Of a DNA stretch of 59,492 nucleotides, positions 4,007 through 59,492 are shown piece by piece. Position numbers and translations under genes: made by a program. Within the stretch, counting starts at the first letter, position 1. Every line of letters starts with the position of its first letter. The notes below the pieces were generated by a model, which did no database searches, had not been told where the DNA came from, and saw only the letters and a program-made list of their open reading frames with translations. This DNA comes from Elusimicrobiaceae bacterium (GTDB lineage: Bacteria; Elusimicrobiota; Elusimicrobia; Elusimicrobiales; Elusimicrobiaceae). The stretch lies in assembly GCA_017961585.1 (NCBI GenBank), contig JAGCWX010000001.1, forward strand, positions 1 to 59,492, written 5' to 3'.

Positions 4007-4474
4007 ATGAAAAAAATTGCAGTGTTGTTTTCTCTGTTTTTGTTTGTGTGCGCGCCGGTTTTCGCCCAGAAATATGCCAGCGTAAATGCCAAGCGGGCTA
4101 ACATCCGCACCTGCGCGGGAACGAAATGCGCTGTTAAATTTTACATGTGGCGCTATACCCCGGTGATTATGTTGCAAACCAACGAAACCAAAGATTGGGT
4201 GCTTGTAAAAGATTTTGAAGGATATCAAGGTTGGATCTCGGCCTCTTTGTTGAGCCCCAATGGGGGGATGTCGGCCAAAGTAGATTTGAACGTACGTTCT
4301 ACCCCGTCGGCCAATTCCGACATTGTTTGCACCGTACAAAAAGGATATCCGCTTAAATACATTTCCAAACAAGGGAAATGGATTCAAGTAAAAGATGAAC
4401 CCGAAAATGCCAAAGACGGCGTTTGCAAAGGTTGGGTATATAACGCCAACTTGTGGGGTTTCTTTAAACAATAA
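4007..4474 (+). CDS. exported bacterial SH3-domain protein
   Basis: 155 residues starting with a clear signal peptide (MKKIAVLFSLFLFV, cleavage after VFAQ). Two bacterial SH3 modules follow. One begins at YASVNAKRANIR, the other at KVDLNVRSTPSANSD, and each carries the ANIR/LNVR-type strand and a Gly-Trp turn (GWI, GWV). SH3b modules commonly bind peptidoglycan or other envelope ligands. No enzyme domain is attached, so a structural or targeting role in the periplasm is inferred. The start is fixed by AAGGAG 5 nt upstream of the ATG. The gene has its own promoter and terminator. Confidence 0.8.
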   Translation: MKKIAVLFSLFLFVCAPVFAQKYASVNAKRANIRTCAGTKCAVKFYMWRYTPVIMLQTNETKDWVLVKDFEGYQGWISASLLSPNGGMSAKVDLNVRSTPSANSDIVCTVQKGYPLKYISKQGKWIQVKDEPENAKDGVCKGWVYNANLWGFFKQ

Positions 4475-30379: not shown

Positions 30380-30611
30380 TTTGAAAACCTACGCGAAAGC
30401 GTGGGTTTTTTTTGTGGACCGGCAGGCGCGAATGAACGCCAAAGGGCCAGGGTCGCAAGTTGGGTCCCGTCAGGTCCACCATTTGAAAACCTACGCGAAA
30501 GCGTGGGTTTTTTTGTGGACCGGCAGGCGCGAATGAACGCCAAAGGGCCAGGGTCGCAAGTTGGGTCCCGTCAGGTCCACCATTTGAAAACCTACGCGAA
30601 AGCGTGGGTTT
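30367..30611 (+). repeat. three tandem copies of tRNA-Ala 3' end plus terminator
   Basis: The segment starting GTCAGGTCCACCATTTG occurs at 30367 (real tRNA), 30469 and 30570, spaced 102 and 101 bp. The two units differ only by one T in the terminator run, so the duplication is recent or actively homogenised. Each unit carries a terminator hairpin (CCTACGC-GAAA-GCGTGGG) and a stretch with a corrupted T-arm (GGTCGCAAGTTGGGTCCC). GTGGACC in each unit can pair with GGTCCAC of the next 3' end, mimicking an acceptor stem. There is no anticodon, so the copies are not functional tRNAs. Copy three runs to the nfo stop codon. Confidence 0.9.
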
Positions 30612-37317: not shown

Positions 37318-37545
37318 TTTAAAACCACCCTTTCGGGTGGTTTTCAAATTTGCCCAGTACAGACCTCGCCTTCCGGTAAAATTCCTGACGGAATTTTCCT
37401 GCAGGCCGGGCTCGCGGTTTTTGCCTTTCGCGGCTTACGCACGCTCAAACAAAAACATCGCTGCGCCTTTCGCTCCCTGCCGCGCATAAAGCAGTTTATG
37501 CGCTACTGACCATTAAAAAACCCGTCATAAGGACGGGTTTTCTAA
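37318..37545 (-). repeat. tRNA-Val 3'-end element with hairpins
   Basis: Read on the minus strand from the tRNA end: a terminator, then a 9-bp hairpin with CTGC loop (37482-37503), the 53-bp core (37411-37463), ATTCCGTCAG, a copy of the tRNA 3' end (CTGTACTGGGCA at 37349-37360), and a second terminator (ACCACCC-GAAA-GGGTGGT). The core is identical base for base to 57627-57679 in the opposite orientation. The copy of the tRNA end lies about 200 bp from the real one. No convincing protein is encoded. Confidence 0.85.
37515..37541 (-). terminator. terminator of tRNA-Val
   Basis: CCCGTC (37521-37526) and GACGGG (37532-37537) form the stem. On the minus strand it is followed by six T. Confidence 0.85.
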
Positions 37546-37620
37546 TGGTGCCCAGTACAGGGATCGAACCTGTGGCCTTTCCCATGTCAAGGGAACGCGC
37601 TACCGCTGCGCCAACTGGGC
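37546..37620 (-). tRNA. tRNA-Val (GAC)
   Basis: 75 nt cloverleaf. The acceptor GCCCAGT pairs with ACTGGGC. Anticodon stem TTCCC/GGGAA, loop TTGACAT, anticodon GAC. T-arm GTTCGATCC. CCA is encoded at 37546-37548. Both ends of the gene have partial copies nearby. Confidence 0.95.
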
Positions 37621-56181: not shown

Positions 56182-56256
56182 GGAGTCGTGGTGTAGCCTG
56201 GTTAACACGCTGCCCTGTCAAGGCAGAGACCGCGAGTTCGAATCTCGTCGACTCCG
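56182..56256 (+). tRNA. tRNA-Asp (GTC)
   Basis: 75 nt. The acceptor GGAGTCG pairs with CGACTCC, discriminator G. Anticodon stem CTGCC/GGCAG, loop CTGTCAA, anticodon GTC. The CCA is not encoded (GTAA follows), unlike the other three tRNA genes, so it must be added by an enzyme. Confidence 0.95.
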
Positions 56257-56460
56257 TAAAAATTTGAACCCCCTTTATGGGGGTTTTAATTTTTGTGGAG
56301 TATCGAGCAATACCAACTGCTTGGTATTGCGTCGAGATTCGAAAGCCGGACCCTTATGCGAGTTTGAGTGCCGACGGCACGAAAGGCGAGCATGGGGAGG
56401 CGGGGTCGCGAGCGCCGCACGTCAGTAAGGCGACTTGTGACCGAACGTGTCGACTCCGTA
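56248..56460 (+). repeat. tRNA-Asp 3'-end element
   Basis: GTCGACTCCGTA occurs at 56248-56259 (tRNA end) and again at 56449-56460. In between come a terminator (AACCCCC/GGGGGTT, 56267-56287), GGAGTATCGA that mirrors the acceptor, a perfect 10-bp hairpin with CTGC loop (56307-56330), GTCGAGATTCGAA (antisense to the T-arm), and a degenerate form of the core found at 57.6 kb (GTTTGAG and CGAAAGGC). Confidence 0.82.
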
Positions 56461-56622
56461 TTTTAGTTTTGAGTTTATAGCATATATTCCCGTTAGAGTT
56501 TAGCTCCGACGGGGATTTTTTATGAATGACTTTGAGCATGCGCTTTTTGACTGATTTTTGGGAATTGTGGCAAATCTTTTGTTTTTATGCTGACCGGGCT
56601 AGGTAGGAAGTCGCGCAAATGC
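56456..56622 (+). repeat. flanking repeat, copy A
   Basis: 167 bp. It starts at the copied tRNA-Asp end (CCGTATTTTAG), holds a terminator (CCCGTTAGAG with CTCCGACGGG, then T run), a diverged middle, and a conserved end TTTTTATGCTGAC, GGTAGGAAGT, GCGCA. It matches copy B at 58555-58722 in the same orientation. Confidence 0.85.
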
Positions 56623-56669
56623 AAATTAAAATATGTTATAGTAGGACTATATTCCTACAGGAGAAGAAT

Positions 56670-57497
56670 ATGCGTAAACTTTTATTAGTAATTTTTGGAC
56701 TATTAGGTTTTGTGTTTTTAGTTGGGTTTTTTAGCGCAATATTACTAGGTAGAGACCCTGCATTGATAACGGCTACCAAGTATGGAGAAACTAATAGAGT
56801 TTCTCAGCTTATTCAAGAAGGGAATAATCCAGATACCACAGACCGAGATAAATTAACTGCCTTGATTTGGGCAAGTGATAAAGGATACGCAGATATTGTA
56901 AATATTTTACTAGCGGCAGGAGCAGATGTAAATGCAGCGGCAAAAGATGGAGTAACTGCTCTTGGATGTGCAAGTAAATCAGGACATTTAGAAATTGTTA
57001 AAATACTATTAAATGCTGGTTCTAATATAAATACCAAGAACGAAGAGGGAACCTCTCCACTAATGCTTGCTAGTCAGTTTGGGCATTCAGATATTGTAAA
57101 AATATTGCTATCTAAAGGTGCTAATGTAAATGCGCCTGATAACACAAATGATACTTCTTTAATGTGGGCTAGTCTGTTTGGACATTTTGAAATAGTTAAA
57201 CTGCTAATATCAGCAAATGCTAATGTTAATACGGTAGACATAAATGGGGAAACTGCGCTTATGTGGGCTATTGAAGGAATAAACCTTGAACGCGACGCCC
57301 CTCCCGAATTTCTCAAAAGGGCAAATATAAATATGAAAGATAAAAAAAGAAACTATAAAACTGTTGAAATATTATTATCTGCTGGAGCTAATGTAAACGC
57401 CAAAGATAAAGACGGTGACACTGTCCTCAAACGCACTCAAGAAGCTGGAAATGAAGAAATTGTCCAACTTTTAAAATCTTATGGGGCCAAAGAATAA
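56670..57497 (+). CDS. membrane-anchored ankyrin-repeat protein
   Basis: 275 residues. One N-terminal helix (LLVIFGLLGFVFLVGFFSAILL) is followed by seven ankyrin repeats of 33 residues, with motifs such as GVTALGCASKSGHLEIVKIL and LLSAGANVNAKDKDG. The sixth is disrupted by an extra 20 residues near ERDAPPEFLKR. The DNA is visibly richer in A and T than murB next door, which suggests later arrival. The ATG at 56670 has AGGAGAAG before it. Ankyrin proteins bind other proteins, and the partner is unknown. Confidence 0.82.
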   Translation: MRKLLLVIFGLLGFVFLVGFFSAILLGRDPALITATKYGETNRVSQLIQEGNNPDTTDRDKLTALIWASDKGYADIVNILLAAGADVNAAAKDGVTALGCASKSGHLEIVKILLNAGSNINTKNEEGTSPLMLASQFGHSDIVKILLSKGANVNAPDNTNDTSLMWASLFGHFEIVKLLISANANVNTVDINGETALMWAIEGINLERDAPPEFLKRANINMKDKKRNYKTVEILLSAGANVNAKDKDGDTVLKRTQEAGNEEIVQLLKSYGAKE

Positions 57498-57526
57498 GCA
57501 CCTTGCTGCCTAAACTACAAGCTCCG

Positions 57527-57790
57527 TATGAATTTGAAAACCCTGCGCGTAAGCGTGGGGTTTTTAAATTTATAGGAGTAACGAGCTGCATAAACTGCTT
57601 TATGTTGCGTCGAGATTCGAAGCCCACAGCGATGTTTTTGTTTGAGCGTGCGTAAGCCGCGAAAGGCAAAAACCGCGAGGGCAGTTCCGGGCAAAAGCCC
57701 GCAAACCATTGCGGGCGTATCAATAAGCAAGCCGAAGGCTGGAATAATCTCGTAGAGATTTATTCCGTCAGAGAATTTACATCAGAGAAA
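57527..57790 (+). repeat. structured repeat element sharing the 53-bp core
   Basis: It begins CTCCGTATGAATTTG, like a tRNA-Asp 3' end and its flank. A terminator (CCCTGCGC-GTAA-GCGTGGGG), a hairpin with CTGC loop (CATAAA/TTTATG, 57589-57604), GTCGAGATTCGAA, and the core 57627-57679 identical to the tRNA-Val element follow. Then come ATTCCGTCAG and a hairpin GGAATAA/TTATTCC (57741-57766). It fills the gap between the ankyrin gene and the TPR-like gene. Confidence 0.82.
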
Positions 57791-57808
57791 TTCCACCTCT
57801 TAGAATCT

Positions 57809-58387
57809 TTAAATTGAACTCAATTTTTCCAATCTATCTTGTACTTCTTTACATAGCAACATGTAAGTTTCGCGTGTACCATCCCAACAATCTGTAGTAG
57901 TCAAGGCTTTCTTGTAATAATTAACCGCTTGCGCCAAATCTGGTACACTTGCAAATCCCTCTTCGTACATTAACCCCAAATAATAATAATCTTCCAACTC
58001 TAGTTTCCTACCTTTGTAACCATTTTCCAACAATTCCACCAAGTGTAACGCCCCTTCAAAAACTTCTTGCGCTTGCTTGGGATTTTTTCTGAAAAATCCA
58101 GCATCTTCTCCCGCATCATAAGCCGAAATCAACTCATCTAATGCCGCAAGATCATTTTTTAAAACACCCTGCTTATAGAATCGGTCAATATCTTGAATTT
58201 TAGCTTTAGAACCAAACAAAACCGATTTAACAATTCCCAAAAACAACAACGCAAGAAATAAAACAAAAGGAATTGCTAGCCACATACACACACCAATTAT
58301 AACACCCCCTTCTACTCCAAAAGATACTGCACAAGAAAAAATACAAATAACACCTATAATTAAATATATCACTAGAATATTTTTCAT
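57809..58387 (-). CDS. membrane protein with TPR/Sel1-like repeats
   Basis: 192 residues. Two N-terminal helices (NILVIYLIIGVICIFSCAV and IGVCMWLAIPFVLFLALLFLG region) are followed by a cytoplasmic part with one or two Sel1-like units (LEDYYYLGLMYEEGFASVPDLAQAVNYYKKAL). I know no close family. The AT-rich base make-up and place between repeats mark it as accessory. Confidence 0.68.
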   Translation of the reverse strand: MKNILVIYLIIGVICIFSCAVSFGVEGGVIIGVCMWLAIPFVLFLALLFLGIVKSVLFGSKAKIQDIDRFYKQGVLKNDLAALDELISAYDAGEDAGFFRKNPKQAQEVFEGALHLVELLENGYKGRKLELEDYYYLGLMYEEGFASVPDLAQAVNYYKKALTTTDCWDGTRETYMLLCKEVQDRLEKLSSI

Positions 58388-58554
58388 ATCATTTTTTCAC
58401 CATTTTATTTCAAATATTCTAGATATATTTGACGGGATTGGCAAGTACTTTATTTAGAAATGAATTCATACTTGAGCATGATATTTGGCCAAAGAATCTC
58501 TCTATAACATTCCTTGTTTGAAAAATCAGCATAGTGCTAGGGAAACTAAAAGCA

Positions 58555-58722
58555 CCGTATTTTAGTTTTTGATTATTAGCATAAATCCCCGTTAGAGTTT
58601 GGCTCCGACGGGGATTTTTTTGTGCGCCACTGATAGTAGGGGAATTTTGGCGGGTTTTCGTGCTTTTTGGTAAATATTCTCTTTTTATGCTGACGGGACT
58701 GGGTAGGAAGTGGCGCAGATGC
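58555..58722 (+). repeat. flanking repeat, copy B
   Basis: 168 bp, matching copy A at 56456-56622. Both terminator arms (CCCCGTTAGAG and CTCCGACGGGG) and the last 40 bp are strongly alike, while the middle has diverged. The 167 bp before it (58388-58554) are AT-rich with nothing recognisable beyond the likely promoter region of the TPR-like gene. Confidence 0.85.
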
Positions 58723-58861
58723 TCATAAATTCACACGTTACCGCCTATAACGACTCAGAAGTCAAGTTAATATTTGATACTTGCTGTCATAAACGAACAA
58801 ATTTTGAATTTTTCCTACAAAATTTGTTGTATGTTTTAAAAACGAATCTACCTTGTAAAAG

Positions 58862-59492
58862 CTATTTAGAGATGGCCAATTCTTGCGCTTTTTTCATATC
58901 AGCTTGCGCTCCGGCTAGATCACCCAAGGATTGTTTGGCTTGTGCACGAAATTGGTAGGCCTTAGAACGCAGTTTAGGGTTGGTACTTAATTCAATAAAC
59001 TTCGTATAGTCGGAAATAGCTCCAGTATAATCTTTTAATTCCATTCTGGAAGATCCCCTAGTATAGTAAGCAGGAACAACGGTTGGATCTAATTCCAGTA
59101 CTCGCGTATCATCCGCAACAGCAGCTCTATATTGTTGCATAGAATTATAACATCCACTACGGTGTGCATATGCCAACACCTCTGTAGGATTTAATTCAAT
59201 CGCGCGGGTAAAATCTTTGATTGCACCTTTACAATCTTTTAGATCTTCTTTGATAAATCCGCGATTTAAATAAACTTCCGCATCAGCTTCCGGGTCTAAT
59301 TCAATGGCTTTATTGATATCTGCCAATGCTTCTCTGTGGCGTTTCATTTCATTTTTTAGTAAGGCACGGGCAAACCAATGACCACCGCCATTAGGTTCCA
59401 ATTCAATGGCACGGTTTACGTCTTCCTCGGCACCTTGATAGTCGCCCAACTCCATTTTGGCACCGCCACGATAGCTATATAAAAGTGCATAA
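58862..59492 (-). CDS. TPR-repeat protein, 5' end outside window
   Basis: The frame is open to the right edge (codons before the ATG at 59455 read YALLYSYRGGAK and fit a TPR helix), so the gene continues beyond the window. At least 210 residues form five to six tetratricopeptide repeats of 34 residues, with motifs such as GDYQGAEEDVNRAIELEP, CKGAIKDFTRAIELNP and KDYTGAISDYTKFIEL. TPR proteins are scaffolds. No other domain is visible. The 139 bp between repeat copy B and its stop hold nothing I can support. Confidence 0.8.
   Translation of the reverse strand, partial: YALLYSYRGGAKMELGDYQGAEEDVNRAIELEPNGGGHWFARALLKNEMKRHREALADINKAIELDPEADAEVYLNRGFIKEDLKDCKGAIKDFTRAIELNPTEVLAYAHRSGCYNSMQQYRAAVADDTRVLELDPTVVPAYYTRGSSRMELKDYTGAISDYTKFIELSTNPKLRSKAYQFRAQAKQSLGDLAGAQADMKKAQELAISK

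Follow-up and report, generated by a model that had tools for sequence, protein, structure and literature searches.

Organization of the tRNA-Asp locus

The DNA stretch analyzed here (the window) is the whole of contig C26, 59,492 bases of a 1.49-Mb Elusimicrobiaceae draft genome, in which murB and tRNA-Asp(GTC) are followed, in that order along the contig, by an array of at least four units, the contig ending within the array. Two kinds of unit, here termed A-type cassettes and E-type structured elements, are intermixed behind the tRNA gene, and we consider it quite probable that the locus is a hot spot which holds A-type cassettes inserted by a large serine recombinase (LSR), together with E, a second family of insertions at tRNA ends. 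Each unit opens at a ..CC/GTA.. junction (a slash denotes the crossover point throughout), with crossover points after positions 56255, 56457, 57525, and 58556. The features of the array are as follows.

56182-56256, plus strand: tRNA-Asp(GTC), the proposed integration target, with the core CC at 56254-56255
56256-56457, plus strand: unit 1, a terminator followed by structured element E1 (56295-56457, 85 bits), whose 5' arm is complementary to tRNA-Asp and whose 3' arm is a direct copy of the tRNA-Asp end
56458-57525, plus strand: unit 2, repeat A and an ankyrin gene
56456-56629, plus strand: repeat A, which forms the left end of an A-type cassette and comprises an attP half, a terminator, and a conserved tail
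56670-57497, plus strand: cargo gene for an ankyrin-repeat protein (Pfam Ank_2, 5e-47)
57493-57525, plus strand: right end of unit 2, ..AAACTACAAGCTCC/
57526-58556, plus strand: unit 3, in which a terminator and element E2 precede a small minus-strand gene, ending ..AAACTAAAAGCACC/
57574-57722, plus strand: element E2 (95 bits), with a tRNA-Asp-complementary 5' arm and its 3' arm lost
57809-58387, minus strand: 192-amino-acid cargo gene
58515-58556, plus strand: RE1, right end of unit 3
58555-58729, plus strand: repeat B, left end of unit 4, which consists of this repeat and a TPR gene truncated where the contig stops
58862-59491, minus strand: TPR-repeat cargo gene (TPR_1, 5e-29), open at the contig end

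An initial annotation, made from the letters alone, had described a cassette bracketed by direct repeats A and B. These repeats are real: the alignment of A (from 56456) with B (from 58555) spans 171 bases at 76% identity, a likeness which is not due to chance, because the genome-wide search returned an expect value of 1.4e-29. They do not bracket one cassette, being instead the left ends of two separate units. It is correct, as had been noted, that repeat A begins exactly at a copied tRNA end (GTGTCGACTCCGT, about 56447-56459); this second copy is the 3' end of the structured element at 56295-56457, between the tRNA gene and repeat A. In the order of features originally listed, the ankyrin gene, the second structured element, and the last TPR gene are retained, while E1 had been left uncounted; the gene at 57809-58387, listed as TPR-like, is present, but its Sel1 repeat is weak and below threshold (0.0012), as is, therefore, the label. 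The described shift toward AT-rich sequence was borne out, with a GC content of 0.47 to 0.59 around and before tRNA-Asp and of 0.33 to 0.42 after it. The proposal that the 167-bp repeats act as recombination sites requires narrowing, as the site is the CC/G junction with which each repeat opens, the arms being approximately 14 bp long.

A-type cassettes and the crossover site

An A-type cassette is delimited on the left by the 167-bp repeat and on the right by approximately 40 bp (AAACTAAAAGCACC/). The repeat is present in 42 of 61 genomes of the genus, with up to nine matches, often serial on one strand. Paired motifs in repeat A might hint at a pseudoknot, though strands were mixed in the alignment of 23 copies. 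Elsewhere in the genome of the window, the repeat opens a 3.4-kb unit which follows tRNA-Ser(TGA) on contig C27 and ends GGGAAACTACAACCTCC/GTTTG, and it lies beside another ankyrin gene on contig C36. As the murB-tRNA-Asp synteny is conserved in the genus, the site could be compared between species; the congeners are gut Elusimicrobiaceae belonging to distinct species, and their gene names were read from the sequence, not in all cases by domain search.

In these congeners the murB-tRNA-Asp site is empty, holds one or two cassettes, or carries a long mixed array, which agrees with the hot spot and stepwise gain that had been suggested, and such variation excludes a constant gene content across relatives. 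At the empty sites of several species, the tRNA gene encodes CCA and is followed by a terminator and then, mostly, by a dCMP-deaminase-like gene. The empty site of G012 is base-exact, reading GACTCC/GCCATTTG (longer stretch, GACTCC/GCCATTTGAAAAAATACCCGCC), while G007 carries two cassettes: GGCTCC/GTATTTTAG, an ankyrin-like gene, CTACACGCTCC/GTATTTTAG, a TPR-like gene, and AAACTAAAAGCACC/GCCATTTGAAAAAAATACCCGCC. Comparison of the two places the crossover within CC(G), the sole bases common to both partners; the chromosomal attachment site (attB) and that of the cassette (attP) have only CC(G) in common, and the attP arms are inverted. It was also observed that CCA is encoded at empty congener tRNA-Asp sites and not at those filled by a unit, from which it follows that insertion removes the encoded CCA.

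Linkage of A-type units to a large serine recombinase

In nine genomes (G005, G008, G046, G047, G054, G056, G060, G064, and G070), tRNA-Asp is followed by a larger first unit, which harbors a gene for a serine recombinase of about 538 amino acids (interrupted in G060) next to that for a DUF2924 protein. The cargo of these units is variable, with most harboring, near the right end, a gene resembling the Fic-domain gene of G005, whose element extends over 11.5 kb from tRNA-Asp to CTACACACTCC/GCCATTTACAAAC. The enzyme encoded in the congener elements is a large serine recombinase (Resolvase and Recombinase domains), and none is encoded in the window itself. When coordinates were compared, an A repeat lay at most 5 kb from 22 of the 24 LSR homologues (at least 60% identity), and within about 115 bp for 13. 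An attB/attP overlap of only CC(G) is as expected for a serine recombinase, and the array is thus taken to be a serine-recombinase cassette array at a tRNA gene. The shared core of 2 to 3 bp, the inverted attP arms, and the tight linkage all point to the serine recombinase as the putative, and probable, enzyme.

It is at the level of a model that the tRNA-Asp 3' end would serve as an integration hot spot holding a tandem array of site-specifically inserted units. The A-type units (left repeat, right end of approximately 40 bp, and one to three genes between) are probably non-autonomous passengers of the LSR element. The LSR would join the attP of a circular cassette (AAACTAAAAGCA-CC-GTATTTTAGTTT) to the end of tRNA-Asp, or sometimes tRNA-Ser, at the CC core, and each insertion would leave a junction usable by a further unit. 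The E-type units would represent a second family, of insertions of approximately 200 bp at the 3' ends of many tRNA genes, and the tRNA copy of an E unit within the array would give the LSR an extra landing site. The E unit at tRNA-Asp ends ..GTCGACTCC/G, identical to the tRNA end, and A-type units stand directly after such an E-unit end in several arrays (the window, G015, G018, G046, and G054), a layout which suggests that E offers the A system further landing sites.

Units, junctions, empty sites, and repeat-LSR linkage are shown by sequence, and from them we infer catalysis by the LSR and movement of the cassettes in trans. Several points weigh against this interpretation. Intermediates were not seen among the compared genomes, because these represent distinct species. 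No enzyme was found linked to E. Two of the 24 close LSRs, and three more at 56 to 57% identity, have no A repeat nearby. The genome of the window holds only a distant LSR elsewhere (46% identity) and the contig ends inside the array, so that the window cassettes are either orphans or have their enzyme beyond the contig end.

The suggestion that A and B are no more than conserved terminators, or regulatory RNAs, of the accessory genes, and owe their spread to ordinary duplication, derives from the terminator-like hairpin with a T run in every repeat. We regard it as highly improbable, since the repeat, while it holds a terminator, marks element ends beside a recombinase gene: it starts exactly at the crossover point in every copy checked, it adjoins the end of the LSR gene, empty sites are devoid of it, and the cargo genes may point either way relative to it. 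Insertion of all the units by a tyrosine integrase, which is the usual enzyme at tRNA genes, appears unlikely, despite the tRNA 3' end being the target and the presence of Xer-like and phage-type tyrosine recombinases in the genome. For the E units, such an enzyme is possible, their direct repeat of about 17 bp (T-loop to 3' end) resembling tyrosine-integrase sites. The overlap of tyrosine recombinases is longer than 2 to 3 bp, and for the A-type units CC(G) is too short, while the linked gene encodes a serine recombinase. A tyrosine integrase was rejected as the array enzyme: none of the six tyrosine-recombinase matches in the genome is on contig C26, no tRNA was seen in their flanks, and none is tied to the array.

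The structured E family

The E covariance model was built from five copies, and besides E1 and E2 the window contains a further member at 37340-37512 (minus strand, 148 bits), behind tRNA-Val(GAC) (37546-37620, minus strand). Searches with the model recovered E in 60 of 61 congeners, with copy numbers from 0 to 24, in 12 of the 16 genera sampled in the order, and in 17 of 192 Patescibacteria genomes. Across 94 aligned copies, both sides change in 34 of 41 pairs, and the covariation score of 0.424, compared with 0.125 for shuffled and at most 0.087 for slid alignments, stands far above these controls, although the alignment was itself fitted to the model. Apart from tRNAs, no Rfam 15 match (at either threshold) covered E1, E2, or the tRNA-Val element. 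The E core was not found in viral contigs, and hence no phage carrier was found. No paper on such elements in Elusimicrobiota or Patescibacteria was retrieved from the open-access literature, an absence which constitutes weak evidence, and E is apparently a family without earlier description.

The placement of E is closely tied to tRNA genes: fewer than 120 nt separate 74 of 85 copies from a tRNA gene which precedes them on the same strand. Of seven copies for which no tRNA was called, five stand behind a degraded or edge-cut tRNA and two behind an A-type right end in an array. The 3' arm of E repeats the tRNA sequence directly, extending from the T-loop through to the 3' end. The 5' arm carries this tRNA region as its reverse complement, split by a hairpin (loop CTGC) near the acceptor/T-stem boundary, and both tRNA-matching stretches match one target strand. 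When 19 tRNA types were ranked by their match to the arms, the adjacent tRNA came first in 67 of 78 copies by the 3' arm and in 64 of 78 by the 5' arm; where aligned, the latter is 94% identical to the tRNA complement. Cores nearly identical to one another occur behind different tRNAs, with different arms. A strict tie of E lineages to one tRNA was rejected on 43 label changes against a minimum of 18 (61 when shuffled), a count drawn from few columns and a weak tree. Outside Elusimicrobiota, the same arms are present in copies behind tRNA-Asp (L210) and behind an fMet-like tRNA (L239), while L213, L244, and L250 have different closing arms. At L142 (G011:C34, near 83.3 kb), a tRNA-Val(CAC) which has apparently lost its T-arm directly precedes an E element complementary to that T-arm.

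Insertion of E at tRNA 3' ends

That E inserts follows from its absence at orthologous loci of related species. At the tRNA-Thr(TGT)-terC locus, species without E read ..CATCCTCAGCT/TTTTTTCTTTG (as in G009), and the species of the window reads ..CATCCTCAGCT/AAAAATTTT..E..GGGGATTCCCATCCTCAGCT/TTTTTCTTTTG; judged from these junctions, the difference is an insertion of E with a direct repeat of about 17 bp. We, therefore, consider it rather unlikely that E is an immobile RNA gene serving the host, or a 3' trailer of tRNA genes. A covarying structure in two phyla and a location nearly always behind a tRNA would suit such a role, but congeners differ in whether a given tRNA is followed by E, the tRNA end being directly repeated where it is, and the tandem pairs of E, its range of 0 to 24 copies, and its near-identical cores at different tRNAs are at odds with such a role. 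The tandem pairs are often near-identical and about 170 to 220 bp apart behind one tRNA (G089, G062, G060, and G007), suggesting repeated insertion or unequal exchange.

A further alternative concerns the 5' arm, which might close a stem with the element's own 3' arm, as in a folded attC-like site or a tRNA-like RNA, and match the tRNA merely via that arm. The two arms are indeed able to close a stem in predicted folds. Where the 3' arm departs from the tRNA, however, the 5' arm follows the tRNA 17 times, the 3' arm never, and neither twice, and the 5' arm also covers the T-loop, which the 3' arm is without. Folding by its own two arms is thus disfavored by the 17:0 count as the reason for the 5' arm, and this explanation is given a low probability, bearing in mind that copying at insertion, with no later constraint, would yield the same 17:0 pattern.

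Three explanations of the tRNA complement are possible: it may guide targeting, it may be copied when E inserts, or its pairing with the tRNA may be selected for later. From the covarying structure, the tRNA matching, and the presence/absence pattern, all shown by sequence, we infer how E may select its tRNA. A tentative reading, which we hold to be possible though doubtful, is that the E elements form a class of miniature mobile element not known before, whose structured nucleic acid carries an element-encoded guide which directs insertion at the tRNA 3' end. The guide would consist of two stretches complementary to the tRNA acceptor strand and T-arm, flanking the hairpin, and its retargeting would let one core colonize about twenty tRNA types in Elusimicrobiota and Patescibacteria.

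Comparison with known systems

On the best reading, the array would resemble staphylococcal cassette chromosome (SCC) arrays in its working and not in membership. Both have a large serine recombinase (Ccr in SCC), one chromosomal attB, and tandem composite arrays which include units without a recombinase. The SCC target, however, is the 3' end of rlmH/orfX, in contrast to tRNA-Asp or tRNA-Ser here, and the present units can be as small as 1 kb with one gene, have an LSR paired with DUF2924, and use another att sequence. The tRNA islands of tyrosine integrases (Islander, PMC4383910) likewise target tRNA 3' ends and have a displaced end copy at the border, a feature carried here by the E units, the A-type units having only CC(G) of the tRNA end. 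They differ from A-type units, which have a serine recombinase, no tyrosine integrase, and a core of 2 to 3 bp, and from E units, which are gene-free and lie behind about twenty tRNA types. As in integrons, small gene cassettes are added in arrays at one site and joined at a short core; unlike in integrons, every unit brings its own left repeat and entry is at a tRNA gene. Neither an integron integrase nor an attC was seen, there being no tyrosine recombinase on C26, and integron integrase models were not run.

The bridge RNA of IS110 elements has two guides which match opposite target strands and lies beside a DEDD recombinase gene. E similarly has two short target-matching stretches which flank a hairpin, next to a conserved structured core and beside the matching target, but its stretches both match the same target strand and a direct repeat of about 17 bp is present; no transposase was found linked to E, the IS110 recombinase family not being among those searched for. 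Some casposons are inserted at the ends of tRNA genes and produce a short direct repeat. E differs from casposons (PMC4046053) in that it has no cas1 and, where it borders the insertion site, no terminal inverted repeats of its own.

The array would represent a serine-recombinase cassette system on a tRNA gene, where tyrosine integrases are the usual enzymes, and supplies its exact core, cassettes, and candidate enzyme. The E family would matter more, as a conserved structured core found in two phyla and at many tRNA genes which carries a complement of the host tRNA. If that complement chooses the target, E would offer a novel, programmable means of DNA placement; should it instead be copied, or selected once E has inserted, the writing of host tRNA sequence into a mobile element would still call for explanation.

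Other short units and minor observations

Behind tRNA-Ala(GGC), at 30380-30581 of the window, are two near-identical tandem units of 101 bp without an E core, both of which close with the tRNA-Ala 3' end copied together with its terminator. Short units of a third kind, which contain a CACTTGCTCGAATACCTC motif and repeat the tRNA end directly, were observed behind tRNA-Cys (L012, about 4105-4290, minus strand) and tRNA-Val(TAC) (L018), the tRNA-Cys unit having 38 bp in common with E1. Finally, a tRNA-Trp-secE-nusG-like region is present twice in the draft genome with diverged sequences (L044, G000:C6; L054, G000:C21), perhaps reflecting a second strain in the bin.
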